Source of the DNA: Mesorhizobium sp. SARCC-RB16n
Lineage (GTDB): Bacteria > Pseudomonadota > Alphaproteobacteria > Rhizobiales > Rhizobiaceae
Assembly: GCF_008520305.1 (NCBI RefSeq)
Contig: NZ_ML703276.1
Location: 1-64,000 of the forward strand
DNA length: 64,000 nucleotides
Direction of reading: 5' to 3'
Below, piece by piece: positions 11,385-21,291 of this stretch. A program made the translations under genes and the position numbers. The notes under the pieces were generated by a model, which saw nothing but the letters and a program-made list of their open reading frames with translations, was not told the origin of the DNA and did not search any database. The stretch's first letter is position 1. Every line of letters begins with the position of its first letter.

Positions 11385-12511
11385 TTAATCCGCGGAAAGA
11401 GTTTGACGACTGGAGTCTTGATGCAATTGGGCGATGGCCGAGAGCGCCTGGCAAAACGCCTGACTGACGTTCGTCCTGGAGAATTCCAGCAGTTCGTTCA
11501 GTCCAGTTGCACTGGAAAGGCGCAAGGCTTCGTAACGGCAGATAGGGATCTGCCGATTATTTTTGAATCGCCTGTCTGGCCCACCGCTTTTGTTAGGGTG
11601 AGCCCAGGTATGTCCGATCACCTCAGCGTCGGACGGAACCCTGCCTGTCTCAATAAAATTGGTCGGCGCAAACTGGGTGCGAAGATCAGCATATCCAACG
11701 GCGCCATACCGGTTACCGTCTTTCACAAGGACCAGATCTGGCATGAAATACAGCACCTGCCGTCCCACCTGGATCGAAGGGGGTGTAACGTTGCTGCGAA
11801 CAACTTGCGGCAAGGTACTTGCAAGTGTCGTAGGCTTTTTGTCGACCAGCATGCTGGCCCCGGCATTGCGCTTCCAAGTCGTCAGATCCTGGATCTTGCC
11901 CCCGGCAGCTACATGCCACCTTCCAGCGCAAAGAGTGAGCGTTTCGAATGCGCCAACCAGCCTGCCATAGGCAGCCTCGGCGTCTAGTTCCAAATCGTAG
12001 TAGAGCACACTCACTCGTCGATAGCCGTCCAGCCATTTGCCGATCAGCATGCCCGGTAGAAATGCCATAACCCCCAGCACAGGGGCGGCACCTCCGAGCG
12101 CTTTCCCAACGAGGAAGCCGGCGATCCCAAATAGAATTGCCAGCACCACAGAGAGCCGCGTCTGCGATTGCCTGGCGTTGATTTCATCGATCACATTGGC
12201 AAACGTCTCATCGCGCATGTCCATAACGTCGCCGGACTCGATCTCTCTCATCACGACGCCATCAGCCACGTATTGAGGAGCCGACGGTTGCGGTTGAGCT
12301 TGCCGCATGTAAGGGCTCGGCTGTTGGACACCCTTTTTCGCGCCGGCGTGCCGCGATAATAGAGGCCGCCTACGCCTGCGTGGATATAATGGCCGCGTGG
12401 ACCCGTTCCGATCCGCAGACCTTTCACGCCAACCGAGACGCCGACCCCGCCGGATGAAAAATTGAAGCGGAACGGCCCCGCGCTGATCGATTTGCGAACA
12501 TAAAACCCCAT
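11385..12511 (-). CDS. DUF4236-domain membrane protein, split by a -1 frameshift site
   Basis: The start at ATG 12511 gives the DUF4236 signature: GFYVRKSISAGPFRFNFSSG, then GVSVGVKGLRIGTGPRG and GGLYYRG. At 12331-12338 (minus strand A-AAA-AGG) this frame would end soon after. A -1 slip at that heptamer joins it to the long downstream frame: Q/P-rich linker, then DETFANVIDEINARQSQ, two or so transmembrane helices (LSVVLAILFGIAGFLVGKAL and GVMAFLPGMLIGKWL), and a ~190-residue soluble domain ending at 11385. It is the last gene of the overlapping five-gene operon. Either a programmed frameshift or a base lost from the A5 run explains the break. Confidence 0.6.
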
Positions 12512-12567
12512 TCCCTTGGGTCCCCCAACTCAATGCTGTGAGCTAATTCACCAGCATTTTTCCGCGC

Positions 12568-13617
12568 TCATGACTTTGATCCGACACCCGCCGCGAGGTC
12601 GGTTTCGCGGGAGCGCTGCCTCACCCTGATTTCGATTCGTCGCCTTGCCTTCACATCGCCAACCTGCTCTCCGTTGGTCAGATGGTCGCCAGGAAGTATC
12701 AGCTGGCCACCTGACATCGGCAGAATGGTGAACCCTTTCAGCTCAGGCATCTCGCGAAGTATGCTCGTGACCGAGATTGCGCGCGCCAGTCCAAGGCCGG
12801 CGTTATCGGCGGGATGAAGCGTACCAACTTCCACCTTGCCAGCAAGGACCGGTTGGAGCCCTTTGTCCATGTTCGACGACTGACCGGACATGACCTGCTC
12901 ATCCGTGTGTCCAATCACCTCGATGACGTCGACGCCGTACGACGTTGCAATGCCCGCAATCGTCTTGGACAGGTCGCGCAGCCGCGTCCTGAAACGATCG
13001 GAAAGCTGCGCACTTCCGGTATCGAAATTGTAGCCATCGAGTTCGCTGAGGCTGATGATCGGTGGCCAATCATGCGGCTTGGCGGCCGCCACAGGCGCGT
13101 CTGCCTTCCTCAGGGCATCCGACAGGTCCTTCAAGGTCTTGGCCGTACCAACGTAGCCAAACTCCTTCAACACCTTCGTGCGCTCGATCATCGCCTGGGC
13201 TTGCTCGGCGTCGACATCGTTGTCGGACAGGATTTTGGTGACCGGGGCGTTTTTCACCAATTCTTGGACCGAAACTCCTGCCCTTTTGATTGTTTCAATG
13301 GTCTCCTTCGCCAACACCAACTCGCGCCATTGCTGATCGGGCAGGTTGCGCCCTGCCGCAGGCTTGACCATCTCATTCAGCTGAGCAAGCAACCGCTTGT
13401 TTTCCTCGTCCAGCTTACGCGATTCCAGCTTGAGGGATTGGGCAATCTTCTGCGCCTCTGCGGTCTGTTTCTGCTTCTTGGCGATGATCGCGCCGGCTGC
13501 GAGCAAAAGGCAAAACACCAGAAGCAGCATCGTCTCGGCCATGGTCAGGCCCAGGATCAGCCCACGGCCGTAGCCCTTGCGCTCATAAGCGACTGCTGTT
13601 GCGCCCGTCTCGCTCAC
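12568..13617 (-). CDS. MotB/ZorB-like protein with OmpA peptidoglycan-binding domain
   Basis: About 349 residues. One N-terminal helix (ETMLLLVFCLLLAAGAIIA) has a glutamate at its entrance, where MotB and ZorB carry their proton-binding aspartate. A coiled-coil of ~60 residues and a linker follow. Residues ~205-340 look like an OmpA domain (YNFDTGSAQLSDRFRTRLRD, VIEVIGHTDE, ARRRIEIRVRQ). The GTG start at 13617 overlaps the stop of the previous gene (GTGA); a TTG at 13629 is the alternative. With the MotA-like neighbour it should form a wall-anchored, ion-driven stator-type complex. Zorya ZorC/ZorD are absent, so it is not a standard Zorya locus. Confidence 0.6.
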   Translation of the reverse strand: MSETGATAVAYERKGYGRGLILGLTMAETMLLLVFCLLLAAGAIIAKKQKQTAEAQKIAQSLKLESRKLDEENKRLLAQLNEMVKPAAGRNLPDQQWRELVLAKETIETIKRAGVSVQELVKNAPVTKILSDNDVDAEQAQAMIERTKVLKEFGYVGTAKTLKDLSDALRKADAPVAAAKPHDWPPIISLSELDGYNFDTGSAQLSDRFRTRLRDLSKTIAGIATSYGVDVIEVIGHTDEQVMSGQSSNMDKGLQPVLAGKVEVGTLHPADNAGLGLARAISVTSILREMPELKGFTILPMSGGQLILPGDHLTNGEQVGDVKARRRIEIRVRQRSRETDLAAGVGSKS

Positions 13618-14927
13618 CTGCCCCACCAACCGCTTTTTCTCGGCGGTTCAGCCTTCTCCGGCTGCGACGCACCGTTCAAGGTTTGGAACGAATCATCTTG
13701 CGCACCGTCGGAGATCTTGATCGTCGCCTCTTCACTGTCACTGGCGGCGGGTGTCACAACGCGTGCTGGATCTATTTCTATTTCGGCGTTGGCGGTATGG
13801 TTTGCGCGAGCGACCTGAAAACTCTTTTCTGCTATGGTTGCAACGAGGTCACTCGTGTCCTTACTTTGCTTTTGCACCACCGCCGCAAGCGCCTCGGTCA
13901 AGCGCTGCTGTGCTTGAACACTCCCGGCTGTCCTCTCAGCCGCGGCTGCTGCCCGCTCTACGCCGCTCGCCACCTTCGCCACTGCATCAGCGAGGCCGGT
14001 CATACGCGCTTGTTGTTCCTGCGAGGCCGTCTCGGTTTTGACCGCATACTGGGCGACAGCGCTGCCAAGGAGCTTTACCATAGGCGCAAGATCGTTCTTC
14101 AGCACCTCGTCAGGAACGACAACTTTTTCCAGCTTCGTGGCCACCGTGTCGGCTTGTTCGCCGAGCTTACCGACCGACGAGGACATGGTGCTGTTGGCTT
14201 TGTCAAGCAAATCAGCAGCGGCTTCGACACGTTGCGCAATCGACGAGAACTGGCTTTCGATCTGCCCGAAGTTATCTTTCAGCGCGTCGCTGAGCTTGCC
14301 AGACGCCTCTTGGACCGGCTTGATCGATTCCATGGCGATCTTGTCCAAGGCTGATCTGATATGCTCGCCGTTTCGCTCGGCTTGGACTGCAATCTCAGCA
14401 AAGCCTTCCTCGAGCATCTGATGGCTAACGCGGCGAAAGTCGGCGAACTCTCTGGTGACGCTCTCCATCTCGGCTCTTACTCGCCGAGTCATATCGGCGA
14501 GTTCGTGCCGGGCCGTTCGCTCGATATCCGCAGGGTCGCGCCGCATCTGGTTATAGAAGATTCTGAGCGCGATGCCGGTGATCGTGGACGTAATCGCGAT
14601 GCCGAAGTTCCTGACGATGGCATCGGTCGAGTCTTCCGACCCGAACTGGAACAACGACACTCCAAGGCTCGTCAGCGTGAACAGGAAACCCATATAGTAG
14701 AGATTGTCGCCGGTTTGCTCATCGCTAAGGCGCAGCTTCCCGGTGAAGATGGACACACCGAGATAAAGAAGCATCAGGCAGACAGGTGCACCCGCCGCCA
14801 CCATCGGGTTTACCCCCGAGAGCTTGGCGACGGCGATAAAGACGCAGCCGCCGAGGGTCAATATCGCAAACACGAGGAGTGGGAAGCCTCGATGCCCCAC
14901 CAGGGAATTGTCGTGCTTCCTCGCCAT
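13614..14927 (-). CDS. MotA/TolQ/ZorA-like membrane protein with long coiled-coil tail
   Basis: 437 residues. Four hydrophobic helices lie in the first ~150 residues (FPLLVFAILTLGGCVFIAVA; VAAGAPVCLMLLYLGVSIF; YYMGFLFTLTSLGVSLF; FGIAITSTITGIALRIFY). The last resembles the conserved GIAxAL-TxxGL helix of MotA/ExbB proteins. The remaining ~270 residues are Ala/Glu/Lys/Gln-rich coiled coil (MTRRVRAEMESVTREFADFR...), comparable to the ZorA cytoplasmic tail. The ATG at 14927 shares bases with the stop of the upstream gene (TGATG), showing translational coupling. Assignment rests on helix pattern and partner, not on strong sequence identity. Confidence 0.55.
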   Translation of the reverse strand: MARKHDNSLVGHRGFPLLVFAILTLGGCVFIAVAKLSGVNPMVAAGAPVCLMLLYLGVSIFTGKLRLSDEQTGDNLYYMGFLFTLTSLGVSLFQFGSEDSTDAIVRNFGIAITSTITGIALRIFYNQMRRDPADIERTARHELADMTRRVRAEMESVTREFADFRRVSHQMLEEGFAEIAVQAERNGEHIRSALDKIAMESIKPVQEASGKLSDALKDNFGQIESQFSSIAQRVEAAADLLDKANSTMSSSVGKLGEQADTVATKLEKVVVPDEVLKNDLAPMVKLLGSAVAQYAVKTETASQEQQARMTGLADAVAKVASGVERAAAAAERTAGSVQAQQRLTEALAAVVQKQSKDTSDLVATIAEKSFQVARANHTANAEIEIDPARVVTPAASDSEEATIKISDGAQDDSFQTLNGASQPEKAEPPRKSGWWGR

Positions 14928-15745
14928 CAGTTTAACCCCTCCAAGCCAACCAGCTTTTCGAACTCGCCGTGATGGTTTTGGACCCATTGCGTCCAGAATT
15001 CAGCGTGATCCAGCGACTGAAACGGCTTCTTTTTCCGGTCGATATAAAGGATCGTAACTGCCACCCCGTCGAGCGACGTCCCGTAGGTCCGATCGGCGGC
15101 GCTATTGAGGTATTTCTGGTAATCCAGACCAGATCGGTACTGCGAATAGAGTGCCGTATGCTCGATCATGTCGGAGGCGACCACCAACCGCTTTGCGCGC
15201 CCCTGTTTTTCCAGGCTGCTATCGAACAGCGACAGTTTGATTTTCTGGATGCCGGCCATGATCGGAGACTGGCTGGCGGAGTCAGCATTCGGAATTTCGT
15301 CAGGAAGCTTGTTCAGCGGATCGCCGAACGCGTTTTCCCACTTTTTTTGACGCCGCGCCGGATTGTTTGTCCAACTGTCCACGGTGGACCCGTCGCCTGG
15401 ATTGCATCCGTCGAACATCACCGTCAGGTCGCCGGGGGCCGAGTTCAGCGTATAAATTCTCACATAGCCGCCCGGTTCGACCCGCCCGATGGTCTTGCGG
15501 AACTCGTTTTTCAGATCGGCCATGGTCGTTGCCGAGATGGGATCAGTGGCGTCAATCAGAACCGCCGTCAGGCTAACGGGGCCGTCCAGCGGGCAATTTG
15601 TGTTTGCCTCGATCTGACCCTTGCCAGACCTTGACCACATCCAGGCAAAGCCGCCCAGCATTGCAATCGAGAGCACACCAACAGCGAGGGCCGCAACGAT
15701 TGTGCCGACTTGGCCCTTCTTGCGCCTACGAACCCGCCTAGCCAT
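14927..15745 (-). CDS. Membrane-anchored VWA-like protein
   Basis: 272 residues. A basic N-terminus (ARRVRRRKKGQ) precedes one signal-anchor helix (VGTIVAALAVGVLSIAMLGG), putting the rest outside the cytoplasm. The soluble part has a von Willebrand A-like layout: LTAVLIDATDPIS resembles a variant MIDAS strand-loop (D-x-T/S), and RLVVASDMIEHTA matches the conserved 'SDM/SDG' strand of VWA proteins. No other domain was recognised. Its ATG overlaps the upstream stop by 8 bases and its stop overlaps the next start. It may be a ligand-sensing or scaffold subunit of the motor-like complex; that role is inference. Confidence 0.5.
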   Translation of the reverse strand: MARRVRRRKKGQVGTIVAALAVGVLSIAMLGGFAWMWSRSGKGQIEANTNCPLDGPVSLTAVLIDATDPISATTMADLKNEFRKTIGRVEPGGYVRIYTLNSAPGDLTVMFDGCNPGDGSTVDSWTNNPARRQKKWENAFGDPLNKLPDEIPNADSASQSPIMAGIQKIKLSLFDSSLEKQGRAKRLVVASDMIEHTALYSQYRSGLDYQKYLNSAADRTYGTSLDGVAVTILYIDRKKKPFQSLDHAEFWTQWVQNHHGEFEKLVGLEGLN

Positions 15746-17186
15746 TCACACTGTCCGGATGAAGCTTGTCGAGGTCGCGATACTGCTCAATTCCTCGCTC
15801 GCATTCCTGCCCAATCAGGCGGACTTGAGCGTTGAGCTCCTCCTGCGCTTGGCGGATCGATGCGCCAACGTCTCCCTCGCTCCATTCCCCGTCGGCCGAG
15901 ACATGGGGTTTGATGCGCTCGAGTTTGTATGGCACCCCGAAATGTTTGGGCGCAGGCTCCGTTCTGGCCTGGATATTCGCCTCCCTGTACTTGGAGAGAA
16001 GCTGACTGCAGGCTCGCTCGAGCTGGTCCTGGTGCTGCGCAAAGAGCGCCAAAAGCCGCGAGCGATGATCGACGATGGCACGATGCTCTCGGCGACGACT
16101 GCCGAGTTCCTTGACGATGTCCTCAACCTTTTCGTTGTGGTCGTCGCGAACGTCTTGCAGCTCTTCAATCAACTCCCGCTTGCGGTCGATATAGTCCTCC
16201 CGCTTACGGACCAAGCGATTTTCGACGCCGGCGTAGCCGGGATAAGGATCGAGTACGAACCAGCCGTCGATAAATGCGAAAATCGAAAACATGAGGCCGA
16301 TCGCAAACAGTAGCCATGACTTCACGTCCGTGAGCCCGGCCGGATTGTCGATCATGTTTCGGATGACCTCTGCACCGGCACCGTCAGCGAGCGAGCCACT
16401 CACCTCGCGATAGTGCGCCAGCGCCAGGTTTAAGGTCACGGCCAGACTGACATAGACAAGGATCGAGAACATCCCGACCAGCTTCCCAAAAATCGATCGG
16501 TGGGTGACAAGGCGGGCACAGAAAAGCGCCAGGAGCAAAGCGGCGCCGATGTTGATGAAGGAGAATGCTGCAGCCTCCAGGATGCCGCCAAAAAACCCCT
16601 GTTCGTTTCCCTTGGCAAGGAAGCTGCCATTCATTGCTGTCTCGATGAGAAATAGGAACAGCAGCAGCGAAATCCGTAAAAGGTGAGCCGCGCCGTGCTG
16701 AACCCGCGCCGCGCGAAACAGTCCGTGCTTCCCCTTGAACCAGGCGTGCTCTTTCTCAGCGTCGCTAAGAGCGCGCCTCAACCCATGGAGTTCATCCAGC
16801 CCGACCGCAACCGAAGCTTTGAAATCCGACACGCTGGCTGCGTTCGCTTGACGAATGAGACCAAATTGTTCTTCGAAGTCGAGTCCGGCAAGACGCCCGC
16901 TCAGAAGATGCAGGTTGTCCTCAAGAGTATGATACGATGCCTTTTTCTCGTCCTCGACGCGTTCGATGATGGCATGTTCAACATCGTCGAGATTTTTGGC
17001 GCTCCTAGGGGGCTGGTTTGCGTCGCCACGCTCCTTGCCGCGACCTGCCAGATTCATGTCCCGGTCAATCTTGGTGACATCCAAGCTGCTGAAGAGCTGG
17101 GTGCTCGCTCGGAAATCATGGTTGGACTCGCGGAGAGACTCGCGCAACCTATTTAGCTTTTCGAATTTAGAGCTCACGCCCTTCAT
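15738..17186 (-). CDS. Four-helix membrane protein flanked by coiled coils, first gene of the operon
   Basis: 482 residues from the ATG at 17186, chosen over the longer frame to 17297 because the extra 37 residues look non-coding. Residues 1-150 are charged and helical (KFEKLNRLRESLRESNHDF). Four hydrophobic segments follow (LLRISLLLFLFLIETAMNG; AAFSFINIGAALLLALFCA; FSILVYVSLAVTLNLALA; WLLFAIGLMFSIFAFIDGWF). A second coiled coil (DYIDRKRELIEELQDVRDDH) and a cytoplasmic tail complete it. It resembles DUF4407-type membrane proteins only in outline. As promoter-proximal gene it probably organises the complex encoded downstream. Function unknown. Confidence 0.55.
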   Translation of the reverse strand: MKGVSSKFEKLNRLRESLRESNHDFRASTQLFSSLDVTKIDRDMNLAGRGKERGDANQPPRSAKNLDDVEHAIIERVEDEKKASYHTLEDNLHLLSGRLAGLDFEEQFGLIRQANAASVSDFKASVAVGLDELHGLRRALSDAEKEHAWFKGKHGLFRAARVQHGAAHLLRISLLLFLFLIETAMNGSFLAKGNEQGFFGGILEAAAFSFINIGAALLLALFCARLVTHRSIFGKLVGMFSILVYVSLAVTLNLALAHYREVSGSLADGAGAEVIRNMIDNPAGLTDVKSWLLFAIGLMFSIFAFIDGWFVLDPYPGYAGVENRLVRKREDYIDRKRELIEELQDVRDDHNEKVEDIVKELGSRRREHRAIVDHRSRLLALFAQHQDQLERACSQLLSKYREANIQARTEPAPKHFGVPYKLERIKPHVSADGEWSEGDVGASIRQAQEELNAQVRLIGQECERGIEQYRDLDKLHPDSVNG

Positions 17187-19148: not shown

Positions 19149-19856
19149 TTATCTGGAGGAGACGAAGCGTTCCCACCCTTGGGCGCGCAGTTCGCATGCC
19201 GGACAGGTTCCGCAACCAAAACCCCAGGCATGAGCGTGCTCACGGTCGCCATTGTAGCAGGTGTGGGTTTCCTCACAGATGAGCCTGACCAGTGCCTCCT
19301 TTCCCAGCCGTTCCGCCAGCGCCCAAGTCTGCGCCTTGTCGATCCACATCAATGGAGTGTGGATGACAAAGCGCGCCTCCATTCCAAGGTTCAGAGCGAG
19401 TTGCATCGCTTTGACGGTGTCGTCTCGGGAATCGGGGTAGCCTGAGTAATCCGTCTCGCAGACACCAGCTACCAAATGCCTTATGCCTCGCCGATAGGCG
19501 ACAGCGGCCGCAAACGTCAGGAAGAGGAGGTTACGGCCGGGCACGAAGGTATTCGGGAGTCCATTCTCCTGCATGGCGATTTCAACACTGTGGGTGAGCG
19601 CCGTTTCGCTTAGTTCTGCAAGCACCGCAATATCGACCAGGTGATCGTCGCCGATTCGAGCGCTCCAATCGGCGAAGTCCCTCCGCATTTGATCGAGCAC
19701 GCGCGGGCGGACGTCTAACTCGATCCGATGCCGCTGCCTGTAGTCAAAGCCGATCGTCTCGACGCGCGCGAATGTCTCGAGCGCCCAAGCCAAACAGGTG
19801 GTTGAATCTTGGCCCCCGGAGAAGAGGACGAGCGCAGTCTCGGAATCATGTCGCAT
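19149..19856 (-). CDS. queC: 7-cyano-7-deazaguanine (preQ0) synthase
   Basis: QueC converts 7-carboxy-7-deazaguanine, ATP and ammonia to preQ0, the precursor of queuosine in tRNA. The N-terminal PP-loop is [15 protein letters not shown], and the zinc site at the C-terminus is CYNGD...[25 protein letters not shown] and DYSGYPDSR are the family's substrate motifs. The ATG at 19856, five bases after the queD stop and preceded by GAAGG, is preferred over 19871. It is the last gene of queE-queD-queC, which are tightly linked and co-transcribed. Length (235) is normal. Confidence 0.92.
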
Positions 19857-19860
19857 TGTT

Positions 19861-20214
19861 TCAGCCTTCATATTCGGCCCAGCAGTGCGGGGTCTCCCAA
19901 ACTGTTACTGATGCAATTTGCGGCAGAACGGGCTTTATACGGTCCCAGATCCAGATCGCGATATTTTCGGCGGTGGGGTTTGTTAGACCCTCGATCTCAT
20001 TGAGGCAGTGATGGTCAAGGCGCAGCAAAAGGGGGGCGAAAGCAGCCTCTACATCGAAGAAGTCCACGACAAAACCCGTGTCCGGATCGACTGGGCCTGA
20101 GAGACGAAGATCCACACGATATGAGTGGCCATGCATTCGGTGGCAGCGATGCGATTCGGGGACTCGGGGGAGGCGGTGAGCTGCCTCGAAGGTGAAAGCC
20201 TGCGTGATTTTCAT
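19861..20214 (-). CDS. queD: 6-carboxy-5,6,7,8-tetrahydropterin synthase
   Basis: QueD makes 6-carboxytetrahydropterin from dihydroneopterin triphosphate, the first committed step to preQ0. The 117-residue protein has the zinc histidines ([14 protein letters not shown]) and the catalytic cysteine in [26 protein letters not shown] and LDHHCLNEI are typical of the family. The ATG at 20214 overlaps the queE stop by four bases (ATGA), so the two are translationally coupled; AGGAATT precedes it. An upstream extension in the same frame is rejected. Confidence 0.92.
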
Positions 20215-20846
20215 GGAATTCCTAGAAGCTTGTGGGTTTGAAGGGTGAGCCGCCAGCGTGGATTGGCTAGGCAATAGGCGACCGCGGCCGCGGTATTCGC
20301 GTCGCGCTCAGGTCCATCCATTGGCTGGAGCAGCAGGTGGTCGAATGCCAGGCCTTCGAAGCACTCTGGCTTGGCATTAAGCTGCGGATAAATGAGCTTA
20401 AGTTCGTCCCCGGCCTTGACCAAGAGTGTGGCACCGGCCTTCGGACTGACACACAGCCAGTCGATGCCAGCCGGCGGATGAATGGTGCCGTTGGTCTCCA
20501 CAGCAATTTCAAACCCGGCAGCGTGCAGTGCCTCTATCAGCTCTTCATCAACCTGCAGAAGGGGCTCCCCTCCGGTAAGGACAACAAGGCGCCCCCCTGC
20601 CCCAGACCCGCGCCAAGCCCGTTGAATGGCAGATGCAAGCCCCTGTGCGCTCGCAAAGCGTCCGCCTGCAGAGCCGTTCGTACCGACAAAATCGGTATCG
20701 CAGAAGCTGCAGATTGACGTAGCGCGGTCGGCTTCACGGCCCGACCAAAGGTTACATCCCGCGAAGCGACAAAAGACAGCGGCACGCCCCGCATTGCGCC
20801 CCTCACCTTGGAGCGTATAGAAAATCTCCTTGATGGCGTATGACAT
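20211..20846 (-). CDS. queE: 7-carboxy-7-deazaguanine synthase (radical SAM)
   Basis: QueE rearranges carboxytetrahydropterin to 7-carboxy-7-deazaguanine with a 4Fe-4S cluster and SAM. The start YAIKEIFYTLQGEGRNAG is the family hallmark. The cluster cysteines are spaced C-x14-C-x2-C (GCNLW...ICSFC), the unusual spacing known for QueE rather than C-x3-C-x2-C. VVLTGGEPLLQ and AVETNGT follow as in other radical SAM enzymes. The ATG at 20846 is preceded by AAGG; the 49-codon extension to 20993 is rejected. It is first in the queEDC operon. No folE lies nearby, so the pterin input must come from elsewhere. Confidence 0.92.
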   Translation of the reverse strand: MSYAIKEIFYTLQGEGRNAGRAAVFCRFAGCNLWSGREADRATSICSFCDTDFVGTNGSAGGRFASAQGLASAIQRAWRGSGAGGRLVVLTGGEPLLQVDEELIEALHAAGFEIAVETNGTIHPPAGIDWLCVSPKAGATLLVKAGDELKLIYPQLNAKPECFEGLAFDHLLLQPMDGPERDANTAAAVAYCLANPRWRLTLQTHKLLGIP

Positions 20847-21291
20847 GGCTAAGCTACCTTCGATCGAGCAAGTGCCGTTCCCGACGCCAAACGATGGCGA
20901 GATTGGCGTATGTCCGAGGCACGCTCTGGCAGCGCTCCCGCGTCGCTGTCCATTCCCGACGACCCCCTGACCCACATGCGGAGCCAAAGTCAAATAGCGG
21001 CAGCCGAGCGAACACGTCTCGCTCTGGGTAACCTGTCATCGTATGAAGCACCTGAACCGCATACCTCTTAGCGACAGGGTTCTCTCGCAAAAGGCAACAC
21101 ACAATCCTGCATGGAAGCTTCTCCATTTTGGGCAGCTTGGGATATAACGGGGCTGCCTCTGCGATCCCGACTTGGAGGTGGTTGGAAGCCCTTAACTCCC
21201 AAATGGAATTTTGCAGAACACCTCGCCTACAGGATGGGCGATTTGGCGCTCATAGGGTGCTCCCAAGCGTGCCGAGGATCGCCACATCGCT
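20847..21291. other. Intergenic stretch, no gene seen
   Basis: About 445 bases between queE and the efflux adaptor gene. No MacB or other transporter fragment, repeat or promoter box was recognised. Confidence 0.45.

Follow-up and report, generated by a model that had tools for sequence, protein, structure and literature searches.

To our knowledge, no flagellar-type motor other than Zorya has been shown to act in immunity; the Zorya effectors work in the cytoplasm. According to the sections of three papers drawn on here, ZorAB of Zorya types I and II form motors of 5:2 stoichiometry that have a tail on ZorA, depend critically on an Asp of ZorB and bind peptidoglycan (PMC11890865), the non-flagellar B subunits in a survey of MotAB relatives have no OmpA homology and Zorya is called more distant (PMC12505986), and vWA force transducers next to TolQ-like motors have been proposed (PMC12204202, section 8). 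Here we describe a block of four genes, A-B-C-D, in a 64-kb window (the whole stretch of DNA analysed) of Mesorhizobium sp. SARCC-RB16n. Our favoured reading, to which we assign a probability of roughly 0.6, is that of a motor resembling Zorya, anchored to the cell wall and equipped with a VWA arm, which turns a nuclease in the periplasm on DNA entering the cell. The fold and the nuclease link are well supported; the role in defence we infer. A search of the open PMC literature found no paper describing the A-B-C-D unit.

Each of the four genes overlaps the next in the window (Table 1), and the coordinates and TGATG and GTGA junctions described in an initial annotation of this DNA were borne out. 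Genome contigs scanned by pattern with C yielded 216 relatives, the best 80 of which were kept; these contig loci, picked by C alone, were combined with seven plasmid loci, the first fetched, into a set of 87. A-B-C-D occur in order on one strand in all 87 relatives, indicating that the grouping is not due to chance, and overlaps recur at the A/B (84/87), B/C (79/87) and C/D (83/87) junctions; frames are broken in L031 (B and D), L046 (B) and L081 (C). The conserved order and overlaps agree with the initial annotation that these genes form one machine, although that machine had been drawn with five genes, the fifth encoding a DUF4236 protein. A lack of joint conservation of all five had been set beforehand as a refuting outcome: A-B-C-D are kept together and DUF4236 is not part of the conserved core. 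Collapsing the 87 loci by identity of A and B leaves 37 at 90% and 23 at 80%.

The nearest copies of C are from Mesorhizobium, with up to 91% identity, and the 80 contig relatives belong to Rhizobiales or related genera, except one Flavobacteriaceae metagenome-assembled genome and one entry named 'Bacterium M00...'. Plasmid records in five genera were matched by tblastn, 20 with D and 24 with A; H19 and H20 match only part of D and are absent from the A list. The block is common in rhizobia, gene A being present in 62 of 148 genomes from the genus of a Rhizobium locus and 25 of 146 from the genus of a Mesorhizobium locus, and in 13/385 genomes of a class sample. Eleven of these 13 places were fetched, and contained seven full A-B-C-D blocks, one A-B-C running up to a contig end, and three A-B pairs (L147, L148 and L149, the last on a 5.8-kb contig) beside which no C or D was detectable. 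Such pairs may mean that the VWA/four-transmembrane (TM) pair is older than the motor, or separable from it. No match to C was found by tblastn in phage records, and none was confirmed among the viral contigs searched with C. Directly before the block in 15 loci lies a co-directional TPR protein (median 651 aa; for example L057:3907-6039 in tropical Rhizobium), possibly a regulator.

Protein D is a relative of ZorB and MotB. It has one TM stretch, with Glu28 in the motif GLTMAE, and an OmpA-like domain whose Pfam match (E = 4.7e-4) is below the curated cut-off. The D profile matched MotS (8e-5), ZorB 8vvi (4.8e-4) and PomB (1.3e-3) in the PDB, and window D matched the PADLOC ZorB profile at 3.5e-4. 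When single sequences were searched against the PDB, D of L144 matched ZorB 8vvi at 2.5e-19, its sole match up to 0.01, and D of L006 matched ZorB 8vvi at 2.8e-8 and MotB at 1.9e-4, type II ZorB being the best match for both; the same search gave no PDB match for D of L152 or L155. The TM stretch of 47 D sequences aligned in register with ten known B-subunit stretches at E = 5.5e-5, whereas ten other TM stretches used as a control reached 0.0096 at best. At the ion-carrier position, all 86 scorable sequences among the 87 relatives (L031 is cut there) and all seven further loci have Glu; an acidic residue is kept in place of the Asp found in the B-subunit TM stretch of known families. In an alignment of 30 D sequences, Gly-His-Thr-Asp and the downstream Asn and Arg are invariant, as in peptidoglycan-binding OmpA domains, and the Paracoccus forms of D differ at these positions. 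The single helix with Glu for Asp and the OmpA domain had both been read correctly at the outset.

Protein C has the fold of a MotA/ExbB-type subunit. AlphaFold2 (AF2) predicts four helices (residues 15-37, 41-61, 69-94 and 101-129), with a predicted local distance difference test score of about 70-87 in the TM region, and long helices over 132-379, matching the four helices and long tail of the MotA/ZorA-like protein originally envisaged. A MotA/ExbB fold accounts for 24 of the 50 VIA-align entries listed for C, a comparison in which helical folds score high by chance, and among stators the best match is type II ZorA. The PADLOC ZorA profile matched window C over the tail only (E = 2.9e-4), short of family strength; hhalign of the whole core against TolQ, MotA and ZorA was negative; and a sequence search with C of L144 found no PDB match.

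The two remaining proteins also appear as first proposed, B as a VWA-like protein and A as a second coiled-coil membrane protein. B has a TM helix (residues 13-40) followed by a domain with the VWA alpha/beta fold, predicted to be periplasmic, in which Cys51 and Cys114 are invariant across 30 sequences; searching the PDB by sequence gave chance-level matches only. The window TM helix carries neither the SHLS/His motif nor the conserved Asp of the vWA families in PMC12204202. A, judged from its sequence, would span the membrane four times, with flanks that read as coiled coil, and its invariant polar residues include Glu182, Asn186, Asn212, Asn253 and His258. It scored above cut-off in none of Pfam, NCBIfam and PADLOC and had no PDB match by sequence search, and its TM region did not match TolQ, MotA or ZorA in hhalign.

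A nuclease of the SNase type often lies next to the block and in two lineages is fused to it. Of the 37 non-redundant loci, 20 have an SNase gene no more than 500 bp away and 23 have one within 2 kb (15 of 23 at the 80% collapse; 25 and 36 of all 87 loci at the two distances). The 22 host genomes hold 86 SNase matches in 136.6 Mb, a density at which 0.06 of the 37 loci should have one within 500 bp. The gene may be upstream or downstream and on the same or the opposite strand. Pfam PF00565 scored over cut-off in all three proteins tested (E = 3e-11 to 1e-18), and 34 of 35 cluster members have the motifs DGDT and R..GIDAPE; a hydrophobic N terminus in 33/35 suggests that the neighbour SNase is exported. 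An SNase gene also adjoins the block in L143 and in the viral contig L155, and an SNase remnant lies upstream in L142. In R. johnstonii 3841, the copy on pRL11 likewise has an SNase gene adjoining D. The window itself has no SNase in its 64 kb.

In two divergent lineages the SNase is part of D itself, continuing without a break in frame after the TM and OmpA parts (residues 347-488 in L152 and 394-541 in L144, which has DADT as its first motif). Neither L150, nearest to L152 by its D, nor L006 and L007, nearest to L144, carries the fusion; the SNase parts of L152 and L144 share 41% identity and each is nearer to a stand-alone neighbour SNase, so that the fusion seems to have arisen twice. No further fusion was found in 14 + 2 related genomes. 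The OmpA part of D lies in the periplasm and anchors the protein there, and the SNase fused to it is expected on the same side. The fusions, together with the ZorB match, raise the odds of our favoured reading.

The block also has a defence-gene neighbourhood. Among 20 hand-picked large neighbours, nine had PADLOC matches at E <= 1e-20 (PDC-S37, type IIG, SngA, SngC, MkoA-like, GajA, TIR-APAZ, short pAgo and OLD). We then applied a fixed rule, taking the largest open reading frame within 5 kb, accessories left out, in 23 lineages (eight of these proteins were already among the hand-picked neighbours scanned), with 20 other SNase loci, hand-chosen from the same genomes, as controls, two of them on shorter stretches that reach contig ends. 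At <= 1e-50, a cut-off drawn after inspection of the data, 6/23 lineages had a defence match (TIR-APAZ, GajA, SngC, type IIG, DpdF and SduA) versus 0/20 controls (one-sided p = 0.017); at <= 1e-20 the counts were 8/23 versus 3/20 (p = 0.13). The IMG/VR contig L155 carries the block at its end, with two SNase genes, adjoining a serine integrase and a CI-like repressor, and the block may belong to the prophage. The link to defence genes suggested in the initial annotation is upheld. The HipA locus that it likened to those of defence-rich islands is present beside the operon and in some plasmid loci, but is weak evidence and was dropped as the main argument; better evidence comes from the relatives, whose neighbours include SPARTA-type, Gabija, Shango, type IIG, Dpd and Shedu genes.

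The block has at least three exchangeable accessories: the SNase nuclease, which is the commonest, a DUF4236 protein and an SH3 protein. The DUF4236 protein predicted in the window is real (Pfam E = 2.9e-16), but the gene is not intact, the match falling on a head piece (12511-12251) and the remainder, to 11385, being out of frame with it; some relatives have the gene intact. As a core component it was rejected, being within 4 kb in only 15/87 loci and broken in the window. The family is rare: nine of the 22 genomes hold 10 DUF4236 genes between them, 7 of which adjoin the block. An SH3-type protein lies near the block in 5/37 loci, and the long DUF4236 protein of L074 has a C-terminal SH3 domain. 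Relative L012 also has an interrupted DUF4236 gene and L014 a short one, and decay may be frequent. Locus L163 (G010:C223:245500-260500) has no A-B-C-D but holds DUF4236 and SNase genes separated by about 1.3 kb, with a PDC-S37-like protein (E = 2.4e-40) close by; the two accessories may form a unit of their own.

Table 1. The A-B-C-D block and adjacent genes, numbered by position in the 64-kb Mesorhizobium sp. SARCC-RB16n window.
Feature	Position	Strand	Length (aa)	Description
Gene A	17186-15738	minus	482	Four hydrophobic (predicted TM) stretches at ~167-312; long flanks read as coiled-coil
Gene B	15745-14927	minus	272	Overlaps A; one TM helix, then VWA domain
Gene C	14927-13614	minus	437	TGATG junction with B; MotA/ExbB/TolQ/ZorA-like; four TM helices and long helical tail
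Gene D	13617-12568	minus	349	GTG start; GTGA junction with C; MotB/ZorB-like; TM helix, linker, OmpA-like domain
DUF4236 accessory gene	12511-11385	minus		Frame-broken near 12340; Pfam PF14020
HipA + helix-turn-helix gene	11005-8862			Downstream of DUF4236 gene

The wider window has nitrogen-fixation genes, encoding NifH, two nitrogenase component 1-type proteins, a FixP-type cytochrome and sigma-54. QueC and QueD/QueE-like genes (the last two by sequence only) lie near the operon at 19149-20993; DpdF adjoins the block in L082, and a 7-deazaguanine DNA-modification link with the window Que genes could be conceived.

In the mechanism we propose, C, probably in five copies, and D, in two, would make up a motor in the inner membrane, of the same kind as MotAB, ExbBD and ZorAB. 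Its rotation would be driven by ions moving past Glu28 of D, within a polar ring built by helices 3 and 4 of C. The OmpA domain would hold D to peptidoglycan and the C tail would extend into the cytoplasm. B would be a membrane-tethered periplasmic VWA domain that senses a breach of the envelope or takes up force, and A perhaps a four-TM scaffold linking B to the motor or to its output. That output would be a nuclease of the SNase type, either the product of a neighbouring gene or a domain at the periplasmic end of D, cutting DNA in the periplasm and so protecting the cell; its likely targets would be phage DNA at ejection and possibly also conjugating DNA. DUF4236 and SH3 proteins may serve as alternative or additional partners. 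If this is correct, a second immune motor would make mechanical, wall-anchored sensing of DNA entry a wider strategy, able to act before the cytoplasm is reached. The all-Glu B subunit is also a natural test of why known motors use Asp.

Two observations in tropical Rhizobium weigh against this reading: the block there holds one chromosomal place among ordinary genes, and no SNase was found near L049, L051 or L057. That stable place, and the presence of gene A in 62/148 genomes of the Rhizobium sample, would suit an envelope machine for force transduction or maintenance, Tol-Pal-like or a motor-driven vWA transducer, in which the motor would move the VWA arm against the wall or outer membrane, with the nuclease serving nutrition or the clearing of extracellular DNA, and VWA proteins beside TolQ-like motors have been proposed as force transducers (PMC12204202). 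We nevertheless consider it rather unlikely, as elsewhere the block is patchy, on plasmids and beside an integrase, the SNase link and defence neighbours point away from it, and window B has neither the motif nor the TM Asp of the published vWA families.

Another reading is a highly diverged Zorya subtype in which C-D would be strict ZorAB and A, B and the SNase effectors, a view helped by the long C tail and by the type II ZorA and ZorB matches of C and of D from L144 and L006. However, PADLOC found no ZorC, D, E, F or G in nine window proteins, nor were any among the matches listed for scanned neighbours, in line with the initial annotation that ZorC and ZorD are missing; Glu replaces Asp in 86/86 D, and A-B also occur without C-D. 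We judge such a subtype improbable and did not file the block under Zorya, the Zorya effectors not having been found. Finally, many copies are on plasmids typed conjugative or mobilizable and the window lies in a nif/fix region, as might be expected of an aid to conjugation or DNA transfer of rhizobial plasmids and islands, but the neighbour clusters listed as recurring most often include no transfer gene and many copies are on long chromosomal contigs, which makes this very improbable.

How, then, does the block compare with known motors? A rhizobial ExbB-like gene with a downstream TM/coiled-coil partner (L104, L105, L107 and L108) is likewise a two-gene motor, but its partner keeps Asp, its A subunit is related by profile to ZorA at E = 7.6e-8, far closer than C, and it lies outside any A-B-C-D block; it is an orphan motor worth separate study. 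The non-flagellar 'generic ion transporters' of the MotAB survey share an A-B subunit pair in an operon with varied extensions, but their B subunits, in the sections of PMC12505986 drawn on, are reported without OmpA homology, whereas D has an OmpA domain. The vWA force transducers of PMC12204202 share a membrane-tethered periplasmic VWA beside a 5:2-type motor; in the section cited, however, theirs consists of TolQ with or without TolR, and the TM helix of their VWA protein carries SHLS/His or an Asp, whereas here an OmpA-type partner with Glu is joined by a B without those motifs, by gene A and by the SNase. Zorya has in common with the block a MotA/ExbB-fold subunit with a long cytoplasmic tail, a TM and OmpA partner, and defence neighbours. 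It differs in that here Glu stands for Asp, the VWA and four-TM genes are constant, ZorC-G were not found among the proteins scanned, and the partner nuclease is of the SNase type and, where fused, predicted to be periplasmic.
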